Origin: an uncultured Bacilli bacterium
Lineage (GTDB): Bacteria; Bacillota_I; Bacilli_A; RF39; UBA660
Reading direction: 5' to 3'
Length of the DNA stretch: 36,408 nt
Assembly: GCA_944359075.1 (NCBI GenBank)
Contig: CALVSR010000008.1
Span: 1-36,408, forward strand
Shown: positions 7,411 to 35,457 of the stretch, piece after piece
Layout: each line of letters starts with the position of its first letter
How positions within the stretch are numbered: position 1 is the first letter of the stretch
Program-made: the position numbers and the translations under genes
Notes under the pieces: model-generated
The model's input: the letters and a program-made list of their open reading frames with translations, nothing else
Database searches by the model: none
What the model was told of the DNA's origin: nothing

Positions 7411-7620
7411 TGTAATTTAACATTGATTGGTTTTTAGTAGTTAGTATATGTATAGATAGAGAGTTTATGGTTGGTGAAAATGAACATAGTATGCTAATGA
7501 ATTACATGCCATGAGTTAAATCGGAATAGTCCGTTATGCTATTGAGATAGATGGATTTCTATGAATTAAGGTGGTACCACGATTATGTCGTCCTTATTTT
7601 ATAGGAATTTTTCTTTTATT
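7411..7620 (+). promoter_or_regulatory. T-box riboswitch, tyrosine-specific
   Basis: The leader senses uncharged tRNA-Tyr and controls tyrS by antitermination. The conserved T-box AAGGTGGTACCACG is at 7568-7581. Stem I closes with TTTAAC (7416-7421) against GTTAAA (7515-7520). The specifier loop shows AGTA (7436-7439) on the 5' side and GAA (7499-7501) on the 3' side, putting TAC (a Tyr codon) at 7503-7505 as specifier. The bulge TGGT (7572-7575) matches a tRNA ending A-CCA, the usual discriminator for tRNA-Tyr. AAGG (7568-7571) pairs with CCTT (7592-7595) in the antiterminator; the alternative terminator uses TCCT (7591-7594) with AGGA (7603-7606) and the following T-run. Confidence 0.93.
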
Positions 7621-7633
7621 AGGAGGAGATATT

Positions 7634-8866
7634 ATGAAATTGTATGAAGAATTAGTTTGGCGAGGATTAATCAAAGATGTAGCCGGAAAAGATTTAGAAA
7701 AAAAATTAAATGATGAAAAGATTACTTTTTACTGGGGAACAGATCCTACAGCAGATAGTTTGCATTTAGGGCATTATTCTTCTTTGGTTACAGCAAAGAG
7801 ATTAGCTCTTGCTGGCCATCATCCTATTTTACTAGTAGGAGGAGCTACTGGTTTAATTGGTGATCCTAGACCAACTAGTGAAAGAGAAATCATTGCCAAA
7901 GAAACTTTAAATAAAAATTTAGAGGGAATTAGGAAACAGGTAAGTAAAATTTTTGATGGTATGGCTACTGTTGTTAATAATTATGATTGGATGAAAGATT
8001 ATAATTATTTAGATTTTTTAAGAGATGTAGGAAAATACATTAATGTTAATTATATGTTAGATAAAGACATTATTCGTAGAAGATTAGAATCTGGAATTAC
8101 TTATGCTGAGTTTTCATATACTTTGATGCAAGGATATGATTTTCTACATTTATATCAAGAGCATAACTGTATTATGCAAGTAGAAGGTTCTGATCAATGG
8201 GGAAATATTACTACTGGTATTGATCTAATTAAGAAGAAATTAGGAAAAGATGCTTATGGTTTTACGATGCCTTTAATTCTAGATAAATTCGGTCATAAAT
8301 TTGGTAAGAGTGAAGGCAATGCATTATGGCTTGATATTCATAAAACTTCTTCTTATGAGTTATATCAATATTTAATTAATACAGATGATGAAATGATTAT
8401 CCATTATTTAAAGGTATTTACTTTTTTAAGTAAAGAAGAGATTGAGAGTATTGAAAAAGAACATTTTCAATGCCCAGAAAAAAGAATTGCTCAGCAGACT
8501 TTGGCAAGAGAGATTATTACAGATTTACATGGTAGAGAAGAATATGAAAAAGCTTTGCGCTTAAGTAATGTATTGTTTAATGGTGATGTTTCTAGCTTAA
8601 CTAGTGAAGAGATAGAACAGGTATTCCATGGTGTTACTACTTTTAACATTTCAGGAGATCAAAATATACTTGATTTTTTGGTAAATCATGGTATAGTAGC
8701 TAGTAGACGTGAAGGCAGAGAGTTTATTACTGGCGGTAGTATCAGCTTAAACGGTAATAAAATCAGTGATTTAGAAATGATGATTTCTAAAGAACAAGCA
8801 ATTGAAGGCAAATATATCATTGTGAGACGAGGAAAAAAGAAATATTATTTAGGAATCTATTCATAG
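7634..8866 (+). CDS. tyrS: Tyrosyl-tRNA synthetase
   Basis: Charges tRNA-Tyr with tyrosine. The start at 7634 follows an AGGAGGAG RBS; upstream in-frame codons run through the T-box leader and are not protein. A class I catalytic domain carries HLGH (44-47, the HIGH motif), the tyrosine pocket residues in SYTLMQGYDF and the QVEGSDQWGN segment, and KFGKS (222-226, the KMSKS motif). The C-terminal S4-like RNA-binding domain contains SRREGREFITGGSISLNG. The 410-residue length matches the bacterial TyrS that has an S4 tail. Regulated by the T-box directly upstream. Confidence 0.98.
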   Translation: MKLYEELVWRGLIKDVAGKDLEKKLNDEKITFYWGTDPTADSLHLGHYSSLVTAKRLALAGHHPILLVGGATGLIGDPRPTSEREIIAKETLNKNLEGIRKQVSKIFDGMATVVNNYDWMKDYNYLDFLRDVGKYINVNYMLDKDIIRRRLESGITYAEFSYTLMQGYDFLHLYQEHNCIMQVEGSDQWGNITTGIDLIKKKLGKDAYGFTMPLILDKFGHKFGKSEGNALWLDIHKTSSYELYQYLINTDDEMIIHYLKVFTFLSKEEIESIEKEHFQCPEKRIAQQTLAREIITDLHGREEYEKALRLSNVLFNGDVSSLTSEEIEQVFHGVTTFNISGDQNILDFLVNHGIVASRREGREFITGGSISLNGNKISDLEMMISKEQAIEGKYIIVRRGKKKYYLGIYS

Positions 8867-8881
8867 AATGGAGTGGGTGTG

Positions 8882-10744
8882 ATGCCAAGTAACCAAAAAA
8901 GTAAAAATAAAAAGAACGCTTCTTCAGCAGCAAAAAAAAATACAGTTTCTAAAAAGTCAAGTTCAGCTGCAACCGAAAAGAAGAGTTCTAATTCTAATGT
9001 TTCTTCTAAAAAGAAGAATGCTGTGAAAAAAGAAACTACTCAAAAGAAAGCCTCTATTCAAGAAAAAACTATAAAGAGTTCTGCTAGTAATAAAGGAAAG
9101 ATTAGCAAACAAAATCAGGTAGGATCTAAAAGTTCTAAAAAGAAACAATCTACAACGAAAAAAGTACCTAAATTTAGTACAATTTCTAATGTGAAAGAAG
9201 ATTCTAAAGTAGATGTTTCCAAAGAAAGTGAGAAGAAAGTAGTAAAAGGTGATTTGACACCTAAGTCAAAAGATGTTGATAAAAACAGAATCCAAAAAGT
9301 AGGAAATCTGAAAAGTGTTTTTCAAACTATTCAAAATAAATTTGTTAAGAAAAAATCAAGGAAAACGGTATCTAAATCAGGGAAAAAAGTAAGTACTATT
9401 CCTAAAACTAGGGGTAAGAAAACAGAAGTTGCTACAACTAAAAAAAGTTTAGAGATTACTCCAAAATCTAAGAAATGGCTAATCTGCATTTCTGTTATTT
9501 GTGGTCTAATTATTCTACTAGAAGCAGGTTACTTTATTTATCATCAGATAGAACGTGAACGCAATACTATTTATTATGATAGTTTGAACTCTCTTATTAT
9601 TGATGATACGGATATAGTTGCTGTAGGAAGTGGTAACTTTAAATATAGTAAATATAATGACTATACTAAGGGACTTGAGAAAGCTAAATTCATAAAATAT
9701 GATAGTAGTGGCGAAATTATATTCGAAAAAATGTATGATAAAGGCATTAATACCACTTTTAGTTCTGTTATTAGTGTAGATGATGGCTATATTGTAGTAG
9801 GCAGTGGCGAATTTAGTGAGGAAGAGCAAGAAGAAGGTGGTAGAGAAGCTATTATCATAAAATATGATAAAGAAGGAAATATTGTTTGGGAGAAATATTA
9901 CCAGGTAGTTACCAACACTAGATTTAACAAAGTGATTGCTACAGCAGATGGATATGTAGCAATTGGTCAAAGTATATATGCCAATATGGAAATGGGAAAT
10001 CATACAACTGGTGGTGGAATTATCGTAAAATATGACTTGGATGGTAATGAAGTTTGGCATAATAATCATGGTGGTATGAAATCCGGTAATTTTAATGATA
10101 TTGTGGAAGTGAATGGAGATTTTTATGTTGTTGGTAAAGATGCTACAGATAGTGGTAATCTAGTAAAATTTAATAAAGATGGTGAATATCAATGGCATAA
10201 GAATTATAGTTATACTGATGGAATTGGTTTTACTGGTATCGTTTCTTTAGATCAAGCTTTATATGTAGTAGGATCGAAAAAAATATTACCTGAAGGAACT
10301 GGTGATGATGATAATCGTGATACTACAAATACAGATGCATTATTGGTAAAATATGATTTGAATGGAGAAATTATTTTTGAAAAGAACTTTGGTGGAAGTA
10401 ATTATGAACGCTATAATTCTATTTTAGCTTATCGTGATGAATTATATGTAGTAGGACATACTAGTTCTAAAGATGCTGGCTTAAAAATTAATACAGATGG
10501 GGAACTGATGACGGGAATAATAGTTCGTTATGATTCAGAGGGAAATATTTTAAAGAAAGAAGCTTTAGGTGGTAGCAATAATGATAATTTAACAGATATT
10601 ACTACAGATAGTGTCAGTCTTTATATTAGTGGTTATAGTAATAGTGATGATGGTAATATTACAACGGCTATCAATAACGGAAAAGATTACTTCGGTAAAA
10701 TGATTAAACTTGATTTTAAATTTAGAACTTTAATGATAAAATAA
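8882..10744 (+). CDS. Membrane-anchored predicted beta-propeller with Lys/Ser-rich cytoplasmic tail
   Basis: About 620 residues in three parts. Residues 1-198 are extremely rich in Lys, Ser and Thr and look disordered. One membrane helix follows (about 199-221, WLICISVICGLIILLEAGYF). The rest is six clear repeats of about 50 residues with the pattern [I/V]-K-Y-D-x-x-G-x-[I/V] ... Y-[I/V]-V-G, plus a half repeat at each end, as in a seven-bladed propeller closed by pairing of the two termini. No signal peptidase site is seen, so topology should be basic tail inside, propeller outside. The ATG at 8882 is chosen because GGAG (8870-8873) is then 8 bases away. Function is unknown; a ligand- or protein-binding scaffold is plausible. 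Confidence 0.82.
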   Translation: MPSNQKSKNKKNASSAAKKNTVSKKSSSAATEKKSSNSNVSSKKKNAVKKETTQKKASIQEKTIKSSASNKGKISKQNQVGSKSSKKKQSTTKKVPKFSTISNVKEDSKVDVSKESEKKVVKGDLTPKSKDVDKNRIQKVGNLKSVFQTIQNKFVKKKSRKTVSKSGKKVSTIPKTRGKKTEVATTKKSLEITPKSKKWLICISVICGLIILLEAGYFIYHQIERERNTIYYDSLNSLIIDDTDIVAVGSGNFKYSKYNDYTKGLEKAKFIKYDSSGEIIFEKMYDKGINTTFSSVISVDDGYIVVGSGEFSEEEQEEGGREAIIIKYDKEGNIVWEKYYQVVTNTRFNKVIATADGYVAIGQSIYANMEMGNHTTGGGIIVKYDLDGNEVWHNNHGGMKSGNFNDIVEVNGDFYVVGKDATDSGNLVKFNKDGEYQWHKNYSYTDGIGFTGIVSLDQALYVVGSKKILPEGTGDDDNRDTTNTDALLVKYDLNGEIIFEKNFGGSNYERYNSILAYRDELYVVGHTSSKDAGLKINTDGELMTGIIVRYDSEGNILKKEALGGSNNDNLTDITTDSVSLYISGYSNSDDGNITTAINNGKDYFGKMIKLDFKFRTLMIK

Positions 10745-10769: not shown

Positions 10770-11169
10770 ATGCAAATGGATTTTCAATTTCTGCTGTTTG
10801 TAAGTTAGTATTAGAAAAGTCTGTGATTACTACATATAAACCAATTAATGCTGGAATTAAGGATATTAAGGATGCAACAATTTGCAGAGTAAGAGCGTTG
10901 GTGTCTTGATTTGTACTGGATGCCAAATTTTTAGCTTTATAATTTAAGTATAAGAAAAATAGGATTAATAGTAATATAAATATTTTATTTAATAATGCCA
11001 ATGTTTGGGACTCTTCTGTAGTTAGAAATCCTTCTTTTCCTAATGCTCTTTGCCTTTGATTTAAAATGATGGTGATAGAAACGGCTAAGGATACAATATA
11101 AAGGATACATCCAATTAATTGACCATCAATTATAAATAATTGATCGTTTTGAATTTCTTGTTCACTCAA
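10768..11169 (-). CDS. Three-pass membrane protein of unknown function, 133 aa
   Basis: Three hydrophobic segments are visible (about 18-36, 61-77 and 95-115) with short polar loops and polar ends; no signal peptide cleavage site or family motif was recognised. The start is TTG, with AGAGGATGTGAT upstream and no in-frame ATG nearby. It lies downstream of rpsD on the same strand but rpsD ends in its own terminator, so it precedes no obvious partner. It shares a bidirectional terminator with the propeller gene. Confidence 0.7.
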   Translation of the reverse strand: MSEQEIQNDQLFIIDGQLIGCILYIVSLAVSITIILNQRQRALGKEGFLTTEESQTLALLNKIFILLLILFFLYLNYKAKNLASSTNQDTNALTLQIVASLISLIPALIGLYVVITDFSNTNLQTAEIENPFA

Positions 11170-11222
11170 TTTATCACATCCTCTTACCTTTTTAATTATA
11201 TGTAATCCATTGAGAAAAAAGA

Positions 11223-11247
11223 AAAAACTTCATTTAGTGAAGTTTTT
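11223..11247 (-). terminator. Intrinsic terminator of rpsD
   Basis: AAAAACTTCA (11223-11232) pairs with TGAAGTTTTT (11238-11247) around TTTAG. On the minus strand a long T-rich run follows. Confidence 0.85.
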
Positions 11248-11251
11248 AATC

Positions 11252-11854
11252 TTATCTGTTATAGAATTCAACAATCAATGATTCATTAATATCAGCGTTA
11301 AGTTCGCTTCTTTCAGGTAATCTAACAAGTTTTCCTTCTAATTTCTTATCATCAAATGTTACAAATTCTACTCTTTTTGTAATCTTTTCTAATGCTGCTT
11401 TGATTGCTGGATGGTCTTTTGAGTTTTCTTTTACTGCAACAGTATCTCCAACTTTAACACGATAAGATGGAATATCTACTTTCTTTCCGTTTACAGTAAT
11501 ATGACCATGGTTTACTAATTGACGTGCAGCACGACGTGTTGTAGCAAGACCTAAACGATAGACTACATTATCTAATCTTGATTCTAATAATCTTAAGAAG
11601 TTTTCACCATGAATACCTTTCATTTTAGAAGCTTCATTGAAAGTTTTCTTAAATTGTCTTTCATTTACTCCATATAAAAATCTAACTTTTTGCTTTTCTT
11701 TTAATTGTTCTCCATAGTTAGATAGTTTTCCTTTACGATCCTGACCATGTTGACCTGGACCGTAAGGACGACGAGCTAATTCTGTACCATTTTCTAAAAT
11801 TGAGAATCCAACTCTACGCGCTTGTTTGCGACTTGGTCCTGTGTATCTTGACAT
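11252..11854 (-). CDS. rpsD: 30S ribosomal protein S4
   Basis: A 200-residue primary 16S rRNA-binding protein of the small subunit body. It begins [18 protein letters not shown], as in Bacillus S4, contains [10 protein letters not shown], the S4 RNA-binding domain ([30 protein letters not shown], about 91-120, then [14 protein letters not shown]), and ends [10 protein letters not shown]. No zinc-binding Cys set is present. It is monocistronic as in B. subtilis, with its own near-perfect promoter and a structured 5' leader that suggests feedback by S4, and a strong terminator. RBS AGGAGG precedes the ATG. Confidence 0.98.
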
Positions 11855-11894
11855 AATGTCCTCCTTCGATATTTTTTGTCATAAACATCGAATC

Positions 11895-11995
11895 CTATGA
11901 AACCATTTATTAGGGTGTTTATGTTTCAGAGGTTCGCTAACAGTGAAGTTACTACTCATTTCATAAACACATTAATAATTTTTCATAGCACTGTT
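11895..11995 (-). promoter_or_regulatory. Structured rpsD leader with pseudoknot (candidate S4 autoregulatory element)
   Basis: In the untranslated leader on the minus strand three perfect helices can form: A, 11989-11995 with 11939-11945 (7 bp, AACAGTG/CACTGTT); B, 11981-11988 with 11895-11902 (8 bp, CTATGAAA/TTTCATAG); C, 11962-11970 with 11915-11923 (9 bp, GTGTTTATG/CATAAACAC). B encloses C; the 3' arm of A lies in the loop of C while its 5' arm lies outside B, so A crosses both: a pseudoknot. Firmicutes S4 is known to repress its own mRNA through a leader structure, and this is the expected position. Assignment to the known S4 leader class is inference. Confidence 0.75.
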
Positions 11996-12014
11996 TGATG
12001 AATATGCAGTTTAG

Positions 12015-12043
12015 ATTATATATAAAATAAAGGTTTCTGTCAA
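12015..12043 (-). promoter_or_regulatory. Sigma-A promoter of rpsD
   Basis: On the minus strand TTGACA (12043-12038), 17 bases, TATAAT (12020-12015): both boxes match consensus exactly. The transcript would start near 12008, leaving a leader of about 150 nt. Confidence 0.92.
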
Positions 12044-12187
12044 TTATTTTTTTGTAAAAGTGTATATTTAGGCTTATTAAGTTCTTATCATTTATCGAAA
12101 TCATATGTTTTTTAATGATTCATTTTAATTTTTGAGTATCATAGAGTAAAAATTTTGTCAAAAAAATAAGTAAAAACATTCTTTCTA

Positions 12188-12196
12188 TGGTAAAAT
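12188..12196 (+). promoter_or_regulatory. Extended -10 promoter of ezrA
   Basis: TGG followed by TAAAAT (12191-12196), an extended -10 form; no convincing -35. RBS AAGGAG lies at 12213-12218 before the GTG start. The rest of 12044-12187 is AT-rich spacer between divergent promoters with nothing else recognised. Confidence 0.5.
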
Positions 12197-12229
12197 ATAT
12201 TTATAGTAAAAATAAGGAGTGGTTAGAAA

Positions 12230-13945
12230 GTGAACGGTGTTTATTTATTGGTTGGAACTTTCTTTATTATTGCAGTTATTTTGGTAACTGTTGTTTTAAC
12301 GCTGCTTAGTAAGCATAAATATAAGGTGTTCAGAGAAGAAGTAGAAATGTTAGATAAAGAGAAAAATATGATAGCTAGTACGCCGGTATTATCTGAACTT
12401 TCCAAAGTGGAATCGATTGTTAAGAATGATAAAATGGAAGAAAAATATAAAAATTGGCAGAAGCGATTTGAAATCATTAAAGAGGATAAAATTAATGTGA
12501 TTAATGATATGATTAATGAGTTAGATATTTCCACTAATCAAAAAAATTATAAAAATATCGATCACAAATTGGCTAAAGTAGAAATGGAAATTTATAAAGT
12601 TAGGGAAAGTGCTAATGAATTATTAAATGAAATTCAAGAAATTACAATTAGTGAAGAAAAGTATCGTAGTATTGTAACGAAATTAAAGGCTAAATATCGC
12701 AAATTGATGAATGAATTTACTACTCATCATGATGATTATGAAGATATTGCTGAAGCCATCGAGTTACAATTTGAAAATATTGAGAAACGTTTTTTAGACT
12801 TTGAACGTAGAATGGAAAAAAATGAATATGATGAAGTGGTTCATATTGTCAAAGCTTTGGATACTATGATTGATCATATGGGAATTGTAGTTGTAGAAGT
12901 TCCTAATTTAGTATTACTTGCTGAAAAATTAATTCCTAAGCGTATAGAAGAGATTTTAGCTATTCAGGAAGACTTAACTGAAAAGGGATATAATCTTGAA
13001 TATTTGAACATTGTTTATAATATGGAAGAATGTAATAAAAATATTAGTACTATTTTGGATCGGATTCGAGTATTAAATTTAGAAGATTGTATGTTTGAAC
13101 TGAAAACGATGTTAGATTATTTAGATTCTCTTTTTAATAGTTTTGATCAAGAAAAATTGGCTAGAAAGAATTATGAAGCATTGTCCACTTCATTTGAAAA
13201 AAAACTGAAAAAAACCAATCGTATTATGAAAGATATTTATGGACAACTAGATGATATTAAAAATATGTATGATTTAAGTGATGAGGATATTCAAGATATT
13301 CAAGATATTAAACTTAGATTAACAAGTACTGTAAAAGAATACAGAGAATTAGTGAAACAGGCAGAAGCTAAGGAGAAACCTTATACATATTTATATAAAC
13401 AGTTAGAGATGTTAGAGAATATTCTTCAAGAATTGGAAAATTCACTAGATATTAGTTTAAAATCTTTAGGTAGTATGTATGATGATGAAATTCGCGCTAG
13501 AGAACAATTAGAAGAAATTCAGGATTTATTAAAGCAATGTAAAATAAAAATTAGAAGTTATAAATTGCCGATTATTATTAATAACTATTTTATTGAATTA
13601 TCAGAAGCGAATGATGCAATCAATGAAATTATTAAAGAATTAGAGAAAAAACCAATTGTGATTAAGGTATTGAATACTAGAGTAGATACTGCTCGCGATT
13701 TAGTATTAAAATTATATAATACGACTAATGATATGATTAAAACAGCTCAATTAGCCGAAATGGCTATTGTATATGGGAATCGATATCGTAGTGAGGTAAG
13801 AGAAATTGATCGTGGTTTAGATAATGCTGAAATGTTATATCATAAAGGTAATTATAAAGATGCTTTAGAAGTTTCGTTGGCTTCTATCGAGTTAATCGAA
13901 CCAGATATTCATAGTAAGTTATTAAAATTATATGGAGAAAGCTAG
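12230..13945 (+). CDS. ezrA: Septation ring formation regulator EzrA
   Basis: EzrA is a membrane-anchored modulator of FtsZ ring assembly. The 571-residue protein has an N-terminal membrane helix with the N-terminus outside (about residues 4-26, VYLLVGTFFIIAVILVTVVL) and then spectrin-like coiled-coil bundles for the whole cytoplasmic part, with no Cys-rich or catalytic motif. Recognisable family text includes YRKLMNEF, QFENIEKRFLDFE, and the C-terminal KGNYKDALEVSLASIELIEP. Length is close to the B. subtilis protein. GTG start at 12230 with an AAGGAG RBS. Complete; a terminator overlaps its stop. It is followed here by uncharacterised genes, with the cysteine desulfurase gene (frequent neighbour of ezrA in Bacilli) three genes downstream. 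Confidence 0.93.
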   Translation: MNGVYLLVGTFFIIAVILVTVVLTLLSKHKYKVFREEVEMLDKEKNMIASTPVLSELSKVESIVKNDKMEEKYKNWQKRFEIIKEDKINVINDMINELDISTNQKNYKNIDHKLAKVEMEIYKVRESANELLNEIQEITISEEKYRSIVTKLKAKYRKLMNEFTTHHDDYEDIAEAIELQFENIEKRFLDFERRMEKNEYDEVVHIVKALDTMIDHMGIVVVEVPNLVLLAEKLIPKRIEEILAIQEDLTEKGYNLEYLNIVYNMEECNKNISTILDRIRVLNLEDCMFELKTMLDYLDSLFNSFDQEKLARKNYEALSTSFEKKLKKTNRIMKDIYGQLDDIKNMYDLSDEDIQDIQDIKLRLTSTVKEYRELVKQAEAKEKPYTYLYKQLEMLENILQELENSLDISLKSLGSMYDDEIRAREQLEEIQDLLKQCKIKIRSYKLPIIINNYFIELSEANDAINEIIKELEKKPIVIKVLNTRVDTARDLVLKLYNTTNDMIKTAQLAEMAIVYGNRYRSEVREIDRGLDNAEMLYHKGNYKDALEVSLASIELIEPDIHSKLLKLYGES

Positions 13946-31097: not shown

Positions 31098-31130
31098 TAA
31101 ATGAAAAATAGAAAGTGAGTGTTAGAGTAT

Positions 31131-32606
31131 ATGGATAAGAAAGAGATTATCAAAAATATTGCTTTACGAACAGGTGGAGATATTTATTTAGGGGTAGTAG
31201 GTGCAGTTCGTACCGGAAAAAGTACTTTTATTAAAAAGGTAGTAGAAAATTTAATTGTTCCTAATATCGAAGATGAATATGAGAGAAAAAGAGCACTGGA
31301 TGAAGTTCCACAAAGTGCGGCAGGGAAAACTATTATGACTACAGAACCTAAGTTTGTTCCTAATACAGCGGCTAAGGTGCAAATTGATGATTTTAGTTGC
31401 AATATTCGTTTAATTGATTGCGTTGGTTATTTAATCCATAATGCAAAAGGAGCAGAAGATGAAAATGGTCCAAGGCTTGTCAAGACACCTTGGTATGATG
31501 ATCCTATTGCCTTTAGCGAAGCTGCTGAAATTGGTACAGAAAAAGTAATTAAGGATCATTCTACCATTGGAATTGTAGTTACTACAGATGGATCTATTGG
31601 TGAGTTTGAGCGTAGCGATTATTTAGAAGCAGAAACTAGAGTAATTCGTGAATTAAAAGAGTTAGGAAAACCTTTTATAGTCATTGTAAATTCTACACAT
31701 CCAATGCTTCCGGAAACTGAAAAAATATGTGAAAAATTAAAAGAAGAATATGATGTGCCAGTACTTCCTATGAATATTGAAAATATGAATCAAAAAGATA
31801 TGTATGATATTTTGAGAGAAGCATTATATGAGTTCCCAATTTTAGAAGTAAAAGTAAATATGCCAGAATGGATTGCGATTTTAAATCCTAAAAATGAAAT
31901 TAAAAAAAGTTATATTGATGCTATTCGTGAAAGCGTAGTAGAAGTGGATAAATTAAGAGACGTAGAAAAAATCAATGAGCATTTTATGAATGTAGAAAAT
32001 ATTGCGAAATCTTATTTATCAGATATTGATCCATCTACTGGTGAAGTTATTATTAGTCTAGAAGCTCCTAGTGAACTTTATAATAAAGCGTTAACAGACA
32101 TTATTCATATTGACGTTACGAATAAAGCCCAGTTATTATCGCTATTTCAAGATTATAATGAAGCCAAACGTGAATATGATCAAATTAAATATGCTTTAAA
32201 AATGGTAAAACAAACTGGTTATGGTGTAGCCTCTCCTACATTAGAAGATATGAAGTTAGATACTCCTGAGATTACGAAACAAGGACCAAGATATGGGGTA
32301 AAACTTCGAGCTACTGCTCCATCTATTCACATGATAAGAGTAGATGTGAATTCAACATTTGAACCTATTATTGGAAGTGAAATGCAGAGTAAAGAATTAA
32401 TTGATTATTTAATGAAAGATAAAGAGAAGGATCCAAGTAGTATTTGGAAAAGTGAAATTTTTGGTAGAAGCTTGGATGTCATTGTTCAAGAAGGAATTCA
32501 ATCCAAGATTAGCATGATGCCAGATAATATTCGCTTTAAACTTCAAAATACTTTAACTAAGATTGTAAATAAGGGTTCTAATAATATGATTGCATTTGTG
32601 TTATAA
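31131..32606 (+). CDS. spoIVA: Stage IV sporulation protein A (spore coat morphogenetic ATPase)
   Basis: Forms the basement layer on the outer forespore membrane on which the coat is built, polymerising with ATP hydrolysis. The 491-residue protein matches B. subtilis SpoIVA along its whole length: RTGGDIYLGVVGAVRTGKST (Walker A, near residues 16-35), QSAAGKTIMTTEPKFVPN (switch I region), VDCVGY-type Walker B as IDCVGY, NSTHPMLPETE, and the C-terminal SIHMIRVDVNSTFEPIIG and FGRSLDVIVQEGIQ. The ATG at 31131 is chosen because the family starts M[D/E]K there; the RBS is weak (GAAAGTGAG). hup follows two positions later, as in Bacillus. Confidence 0.97.
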   Translation: MDKKEIIKNIALRTGGDIYLGVVGAVRTGKSTFIKKVVENLIVPNIEDEYERKRALDEVPQSAAGKTIMTTEPKFVPNTAAKVQIDDFSCNIRLIDCVGYLIHNAKGAEDENGPRLVKTPWYDDPIAFSEAAEIGTEKVIKDHSTIGIVVTTDGSIGEFERSDYLEAETRVIRELKELGKPFIVIVNSTHPMLPETEKICEKLKEEYDVPVLPMNIENMNQKDMYDILREALYEFPILEVKVNMPEWIAILNPKNEIKKSYIDAIRESVVEVDKLRDVEKINEHFMNVENIAKSYLSDIDPSTGEVIISLEAPSELYNKALTDIIHIDVTNKAQLLSLFQDYNEAKREYDQIKYALKMVKQTGYGVASPTLEDMKLDTPEITKQGPRYGVKLRATAPSIHMIRVDVNSTFEPIIGSEMQSKELIDYLMKDKEKDPSSIWKSEIFGRSLDVIVQEGIQSKISMMPDNIRFKLQNTLTKIVNKGSNNMIAFVL

Positions 32607-34335: not shown

Positions 34336-35457
34336 TTAATTATTGCAGGGCCGTCTAATATCATATTGAAAAGAATAACTAAAGTTGATAGAACCACATT
34401 TTTCACATTTAAATTTATTGAATTTTCTAGATATAGTAGAAATAAATTCATTAGTTAGAATTTTTGAAATAAGAAATCTACATAAATTAATATTATCCTT
34501 TTTATTTTTATTGGATAAAATACCATAATGCTTAATTTTGGTAAAATTATTAGGTAAAACATGAAGAAGAAATCTTCTAATAAATTCATCTGCAGTAATA
34601 GTCATAAGTTTAATTTTAGAATTATCTTTATAGTCTTTATATTCAAAAGTAACATTACCATTTTCAATATTTTTAATCCTTTCATTAGAAATAGCGACTC
34701 TAAAAGAATATCTACCAACGTATTCAACTACATTTTCTGCTTTACCTTTGGGAGGCTCAATATAAGTAATCCAAGTTTTATTGTAAAGAGGTTCAACAAA
34801 TTTATTAAATGATTTAATATCATTGATATTATCTTTTAAAATCAAATTATTAAATTCATGTTTTAAATAATATAAGAACTTACCTCTAAATAAAGAACCT
34901 AGTACTTGTACTTTAAAAAGATAATCTTTATCACATGAAAGCCAGCGATTATTTGTTAGCCCTCCACCAGTAACTATAGAATGAATATGAGGATGAAATT
35001 CCATAGTCTGCCCCCAAGTATGAAGAATAGAAGTAATCCCAACTTTCGCTCCTAACCATTTAGGATCTTCTGAAAGTTCTAAAATAGTTTCAGAGGTAGA
35101 TTTAAATAAAATGTTGTAGCATATCTCTTGATTGTATAAGAATATTTCGTTTAATTCATAAGGGACAGTAGTGATGATGTGAAAATATTTTGAATTTAGT
35201 AGATAACTGGATTCTTTTTGAATCCATTTTTCACGAGCATAATTCTGACACATTGGACAGTGTCTATTACGGCAGGAATTATAACCAAAATATTTTTCAC
35301 CACAATCTTCACAGGTACAAATATGGCAACCTAGTTCTTTAGTGCCACAATTCCTAATAGCATTAAATACTTTCCACTGTTCTTCCGATAGATTGTGATT
35401 TTTAACATATTCATCACTATATTGTAGAAATATATCTTGAATAGTATATTTAGACAT
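34336..35457 (-). CDS. IS91-family HUH transposase
   Basis: A 373-residue rolling-circle transposase. The N-terminal zinc-binding region has Cys37, Cys44, Cys47, Cys49, Cys52, Cys62, Cys67 and Cys70 (GCHICTCEDCGEKYFGYNS then CRNRHCPMC). The HUH core is H-P-H-I-H (155-159) in FHPHIHSIVTGGGL. The tyrosine region is Y-V-G-R-Y (246-250) followed by SFRVAISNERI, and the conserved C-terminal block is EFIRRFLLHVLPNNFTKIKHYG. A final Cys pair (CEKCGS) closes the protein. All core motifs are intact, so it could be active. It overlaps the recombinase by 8 bases. Confidence 0.9.
   Translation of the reverse strand: MSKYTIQDIFLQYSDEYVKNHNLSEEQWKVFNAIRNCGTKELGCHICTCEDCGEKYFGYNSCRNRHCPMCQNYAREKWIQKESSYLLNSKYFHIITTVPYELNEIFLYNQEICYNILFKSTSETILELSEDPKWLGAKVGITSILHTWGQTMEFHPHIHSIVTGGGLTNNRWLSCDKDYLFKVQVLGSLFRGKFLYYLKHEFNNLILKDNINDIKSFNKFVEPLYNKTWITYIEPPKGKAENVVEYVGRYSFRVAISNERIKNIENGNVTFEYKDYKDNSKIKLMTITADEFIRRFLLHVLPNNFTKIKHYGILSNKNKKDNINLCRFLISKILTNEFISTISRKFNKFKCEKCGSINFSYSFQYDIRRPCNN

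Follow-up and report, generated by a model that had tools for sequence, protein, structure and literature searches.

The 5' leader of rpsD in an uncultured member of the Bacilli (assembly GCA_944359075.1, contig CALVSR010000008.1; the whole 36,408-nt stretch analyzed is termed the window) had been proposed in an initial annotation to form a three-helix pseudoknot, as expected for feedback control by ribosomal protein S4. This raises the question of whether the fold is real, whether it belongs to the known Firmicutes S4 leader or represents a lineage variant, and how it might govern the expression of rpsD.

The rpsD locus and its leader

The rpsD gene of the window (Table 1), whose product matches the solved S4 chains of Listeria and Enterococcus (E about 1e-78), is located outside the alpha operon, standing alone behind its own promoter and flanked by the tyrS and ezrA regions. 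The proposed position of the element within the rpsD 5' leader, behind a perfect promoter, was confirmed; a TATAAT-like box is present at the same place in aligned relatives, many of which also harbor a TTGAC box. The order of genes in the window (T-box-tyrS, rpsD, ezrA, thiI, and ackA) fits that of the Bacillus rpsD region, the reference being the B. subtilis gene order, and rpsD also adjoins tyrS in Anoxybacillus. The T-box leader (7414-7598, + strand; Rfam RF00230, 93.7 bits, barely above the cut-off) lies directly 5' of the tyrosyl-tRNA synthetase gene (7571-8866), with which it forms an ordinary T-box-tyrS unit beside rpsD. Immediately 3' of GGAG is a palindrome, GACATTATGTC (11850-11860, - strand), that encloses the rpsD start codon; the palindrome has identical letters in several relatives of the same genus and is missing from other relatives, and it was judged a genus-level feature and rejected as part of the leader element.

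Elsewhere in the window, a 623-aa protein encoded at 8873-10744 (+ strand) has an N terminus that is long, of low complexity, and S/K/T-rich, a single membrane-like segment, and a repeat-like region at its C terminus in which IVKYD..G motifs recur; no Pfam match was obtained for this protein. A full-length gene for the spore-coat ATPase SpoIVA (31119-32606, + strand), carried by a 1.3-Mb uncultured Bacilli genome, hints at sporulation in this reduced-genome gut lineage, and an IS91-type transposase gene (34336-35457, - strand), specifying Y2_Tnp and zinc-binding domains, is located near the contig end.

The three crossing helices were found exactly as claimed, with 7, 8, and 9 perfect base pairs, all Watson-Crick, in the order A-B-C-A'-C'-B' over positions 11995-11895 (- strand). 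That such a fold is strong for about 100 AT-rich bases was borne out when the 101 nt were shuffled 1000 times with dinucleotide composition preserved (minimum helix length, 5 Watson-Crick pairs): 881 of the shuffled sequences lacked this topology and the best attained 20 pairs, versus the 24 observed; the nested part alone gave a folding z of -3.7. This stretch represents only the core of an element which extends from approximately 12008 to 11860 and which contains five helices absent from the earlier description, namely, P2, P3b, P4, P0, and P5. From the predicted transcript start, the 5' strands are encountered in the order P0-A-B-P2-C, with P2 extending the B-C stack. Within the apical part, P3b (GAG, 11957-11955, with CUC, 11931-11929) is followed by the conserved AGUAA (11953-11949), which faces GAA (11935-11933), and then by the two- to three-pair stem P4, whose loop is A'. 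Sequence and comparative analyses establish that the loop of this apical hairpin pairs back with A, leaving the RNA knotted. By reference to a known consensus, the AGUA/GAA arrangement may resemble a bulged-G module.

Table 1. Positions and supporting evidence for the rpsD gene, its expression signals and the helices of its leader (all on the - strand)
Feature	Position	Sequence	Evidence or remark
rpsD promoter, sigma-70 type	12015..12043	TTGACA-17 nt-TATAAT	consensus 12/12
P0, 5' strand (extreme 5' end of transcript)	11997..12008	UGCAUAUUCAUC	pairs with 11889-11877
Helix A, 5' strand (pseudoknot)	11989..11995	AACAGUG (DNA AACAGTG)	7 bp with A'; covariation
Helix B, 5' strand	11981..11988	CTATGAAA	8 bp with B'; z = -22; both-side changes at all pairs
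Helix P2, 5' strand	11973..11978	UUAUUA	MFE fold; z = -21.9; alignment
Helix C, 5' strand	11962..11970	GTGTTTATG (RNA GUGUUUAUG)	9 bp with C'; z = -16.6; 89.1% paired
Apical part (P3b, AGUAA/GAA, short P4 stem, A' in loop)	11929..11957		alignments
Helix A' (pseudoknot)	11939..11945	CACUGUU (DNA CACTGTT)	7 bp, partner of 11995-11989; covariation
Helix C'	11915..11923	CATAAACAC	pairs with 11970-11962; alignment
Helix P2'	11907..11912		pairs with 11978-11973; MFE fold, alignment
Helix B'	11895..11902	TTTCATAG	pairs with 11988-11981; alignment
P0, 3' strand (switch strand S; overlaps P5 5' arm and loop)	11877..11889		duplex tests
P5 hairpin, ending directly at the Shine-Dalgarno sequence	11865..11892	UUCGAUGUUU-loop-AAAUAUCGAA	-8.7 kcal/mol
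Shine-Dalgarno sequence of rpsD	11860..11864	GGAGG	5 nt 5' of AUG 11854-11852 (sequence)
rpsD, ribosomal protein S4 (200 aa)	11252..11854		Pfam PF00163 (Ribosomal_S4) 3.1e-28; PF01479 (S4) 1.3e-22

Covariation of the leader helices

Leaders of rpsD were gathered from the window's family, from other families of its class, and from named Bacilli. In an alignment-free duplex test, the pairing of each 5' strand with its own (cognate) 3' strand was compared with its pairing to the 3' strands of other leaders. Across 88 leaders of the family, cognate strands paired far better for A (z = -13.0), B (z = -22.0), P2 (z = -21.9), C (z = -16.6), and P0 (z = -13.6), whereas six control strand combinations yielded z values of 0.6 to -4.0.

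For alignment of 94 leaders, a covariance model was used because plain MAFFT mis-registered helix B; helix A, which forms the knot, was omitted from this model, and the pair counts for the knot are, therefore, independent of it. Standard pairs occupied 93.2% of the cells of helix A, with both-side compensatory changes at five of its five core pairs, while P2 was paired in 89.6% of cells and changed on both sides at all six pairs. Two-sided changes were also evident in P3b (88.9% paired) and P4 (81.4% paired), the support for P3b consisting of these alignment counts. The structure as a whole was paired in 85.8% of cells, compared to 35-47% with slid partners, and its covariation score was 0.606, compared to 0.188 for shuffles and 0.09-0.15 for slid partners; RNAalifold recovered B, P2, and C unprompted. 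When placed on an S4-protein tree of 67 taxa, the knot accounted for 16 independent double compensatory changes, as opposed to 0-1 in slid controls. In L117, for example, A reads GAUAACC and A' reads GGUUAUC, in place of the CAGC and GCUG of most leaders. The GUA columns of AGUAA are at least 90% conserved.

A sub-lineage comprising L117, L120, L157, and L159 has had most of the knot helix changed together in this manner, and its transcripts begin with ACAUAUUC rather than GCAUAUUC.

The check on relatives proposed in the initial annotation accordingly returned strong covariation for A, B, and C alike, inclusive of the crossing helix A, with compensatory changes at all core knot pairs. AT-rich DNA is expected to yield many short stems, yet a chance origin of the helices is ruled out, as none of the 1000 shuffles reached the observed number of pairs and the helices covary in relatives.

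Relationship to known S4 targets

S4 of B. subtilis binds the leader of its own rpsD gene and represses translation (PMC10931766), and the Firmicutes S4 leader, a motif described as absent from Clostridia, is reported to contain a conserved, rRNA-like GUAA (Eckert and Weinberg, PMC7247131). The element of the window resembles this leader in preceding a separately located rpsD and in carrying the conserved GUAA, within its AGUAA, the likeness to rRNA being that described in PMC7247131. The two are also connected by common covariance models, which recover window-type leaders across the Bacilli. A family model, trained on 44 leaders from the window's family, was searched against 92 kb; up to E = 1, its matches were confined to rpsD leaders, those of other families of the class among them. 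Its matches extended to Mesomycoplasma (1.7e-5), Enterococcus (0.015), and, weakly, Staphylococcus (0.13), those to true Bacilli being weak overall (E 0.015-0.23, as rough E-values). A broader model, built from 94 leaders with Listeria and Anoxybacillus held out, recovered the held-out leaders at 6e-4 and, weakly, 0.065, respectively. E-values for the named Bacilli are rough, yet place and strand were right every time; in this comparison, the leaders of Anoxybacillus, Listeria, Staphylococcus, and Enterococcus stand in for that of B. subtilis. No match to the broader model was found in the single Paenibacillus rpsD leader or the single Clostridioides difficile alpha operon searched.

The window's own genome contains a single match to the family model. 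Among 60 genomes of the class, the broader model returned exactly one match in 35, nearly all of which were confirmed as positioned just 5' of rpsD, this holding wherever the position of rpsD is known; the search was run under strict filters, such that absences carry little meaning. Several of the public records searched, namely, L199 (NZ_CP030101.1, a 2.9 Mb Listeria "plasmid") and L192-L195 (OR8xxxxx and MT8xxxxx "phage" records labelled Staphylococcus, Enterococcus, Listeria, and faecal), carry chromosomal rpsD loci, which suggests that they are bacterial sequence, mislabelled or contaminated.

In the screen against Rfam suggested by the initial annotation, run at gathering and relaxed thresholds, Rfam 15 gave no S4-leader match in the window, 20 class relatives, or the named Bacilli, and none in the C. 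difficile alpha operon, such that no positive Rfam control was available for any S4 leader. Weak snoRNA and sRNA matches were dismissed as chance, and RF00140 (Alpha_RBS, the E. coli S4 target) gave no match with the threshold relaxed to E = 10. The question of known leader or lineage variant is answered by the models: because those trained without the target groups recover the rpsD leaders of Enterococcus, Staphylococcus, Listeria, and Anoxybacillus, and because the GUAA is conserved, the element is regarded as a diverged member of the Firmicutes family.

Such membership is in itself not new; the knot and P0 are the parts that go beyond, or against, the available descriptions. A 2024 review states that the B. 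subtilis rpsD regulatory region forms no pseudoknot (PMC10931766), whereas the present leaders give the crossing helix A strong support; the window leader also differs from that of B. subtilis in its diverged sequence and its origin in an uncultured lineage. Pairing of A with A' is also evident in Anoxybacillus (UAGCAGC/GCUGCUA), Enterococcus (UUGCAGC/GCUGCAA), Listeria (GCAGC/GCUGC), and Staphylococcus (UAGC/GCUA). The B. subtilis leader, annotated as ldsD, was reportedly described by Grundy and Henkin in 1991 and 1992, and the original papers (1991, 1992, and 2013) may already have drawn the knot.

The E. coli alpha-operon target (RF00140) is likewise a pseudoknotted mRNA site for S4 feedback, used in that case and expected in the present one. 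The E. coli knot, however, includes the rpsM ribosome-binding site, whereas that of the window and the rpsD Shine-Dalgarno sequence downstream of it are approximately 75 nt apart, and the window leader has no Rfam match; the two targets are likely convergent. The Fusobacteriales S4 leader has a GUAA context in common with the Firmicutes motif (PMC7247131), and is set apart, by its published description, in preceding rpsM-rpsK-rpsD operons and having a different secondary structure. The Clostridia S4 leader precedes rpsM-rpsK-rpsD-rpoA-rplQ (Eckert and Weinberg), whereas the rpsD gene of the window stands alone.

P0, P5, and the proposed control of rpsD

The 5'-terminal segment of the predicted transcript pairs, as P0, with the switch strand just upstream of the Shine-Dalgarno sequence, the window duplex having an energy of about -9.5 kcal/mol. 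P0 was also detected among 46 leaders of other families (cognate versus swapped, z = -7.1), an Enterococcus example pairing GUAAAAUAAUU with AAUUAUUUUAC. The same switch strand may instead form the local hairpin P5, for which the cognate test gave z = -8 to -10. P0 and P5 overlap by at least 3 nt in 60 of the 66 leaders having both, in which they are mutually exclusive because the switch strand is shared. The comparative sequence data show that selection acts on the knotted fold, on P0, and on P5. No description of P0 or of its competition with P5 was found in the literature compared, which included PMC10931766 and PMC7247131.

It is proposed, with fair confidence, that the rpsD leader is an autoregulatory RNA which has diverged within the Bacilli (Firmicutes) S4 leader family and in which an S4-locked knot blocks initiation. 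S4 present in excess over free 16S rRNA would bind the knotted core, in which the GUAA is the reported rRNA mimic, and lock it. The locked core would then prevent productive initiation on rpsD, approximately 75 nt downstream of A', either sterically or by trapping the 30S subunit. Where rRNA is plentiful, S4 would be drawn off and rpsD translated. The strand just 5' of the Shine-Dalgarno sequence can either pair with the 5' end as P0, thereby closing the fold, or, in most leaders, form P5. S4 binding, repression, and the direction of the switch in this lineage are what we infer.

The simplest picture, that S4 represses by stabilizing P0, fits poorly with the modelled folds, in which the Shine-Dalgarno sequence tends to become more open, not less, once P0 is formed. 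Holding the switch strand in P0 left this sequence freer in 34 of 88 leaders and more hidden in 7, its predicted mean unpaired probability rising from 0.63 for a free strand to 0.81 for one held in P0. Because P0 thus tends to open the Shine-Dalgarno sequence, the chief alternative is masking by P5: an S4-bound core incompatible with P0 would cause the strand to form P5 and mask the Shine-Dalgarno sequence wholly or in part. This opposite switch logic draws on the shared switch strand, on the probabilities above, and on the several P5 stems which take in Shine-Dalgarno bases. It is nonetheless considered unlikely, as the window Shine-Dalgarno sequence is largely unpaired in both states (0.75 in the free fold), as some leaders (e.g., L103, L108, L110, and L118) have P0 without P5, and as P0 and A, being adjacent on the 5' strand without overlap, can coexist.

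A role in mRNA protection or processing, or in the sensing of another ligand, with S4 not being the regulator, is improbable; RNA decay could be influenced by a helix at the very 5' terminus, but model searches place the element only 5' of rpsD, it contains the reported rRNA-like GUAA, and it is homologous to leaders of a group in which S4 repression has been demonstrated. Still less credible is transcription attenuation, with the alternative hairpin acting as an S4-controlled terminator or antiterminator. P5 is a stable hairpin and other Bacillus ribosomal-protein leaders, those of L20 and L10, operate by attenuation (PMC10931766), yet a terminator scan of 11000-12400 found no intrinsic terminator-like site, and P5 is followed not by a U tract but by the Shine-Dalgarno sequence. 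Attenuation is, therefore, disfavoured. The favored reading, control by an S4-locked knot, would be post-transcriptional, no terminator being present.

The knot of the rpsD leader is shown to be real and ancient, and an uncultured gut lineage is tied by it to the Bacilli S4 feedback family. Because none of the tested leaders matches Rfam 15, the present alignments could seed a family in that database, and the claim that the B. subtilis leader lacks a pseudoknot is now open to direct test. Competition between the 5' end and the strand preceding the Shine-Dalgarno sequence is suggested as a concrete, testable mechanism. We tentatively suggest, as a possibility short of an even chance, that the existing description of the Bacilli S4 leader is incomplete and that this leader is a knotted switch, with a knot whose conservation extends from mycoplasma-like lineages as far as Listeria, Anoxybacillus, and Enterococcus and with competition between P0 and P5, effecting a two-state translational control by S4 that is unlike the entrapment of E. 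coli. Two unrelated knotted S4 targets, one in E. coli and one in the Bacilli, would constitute a clear example of convergence in S4 recognition.
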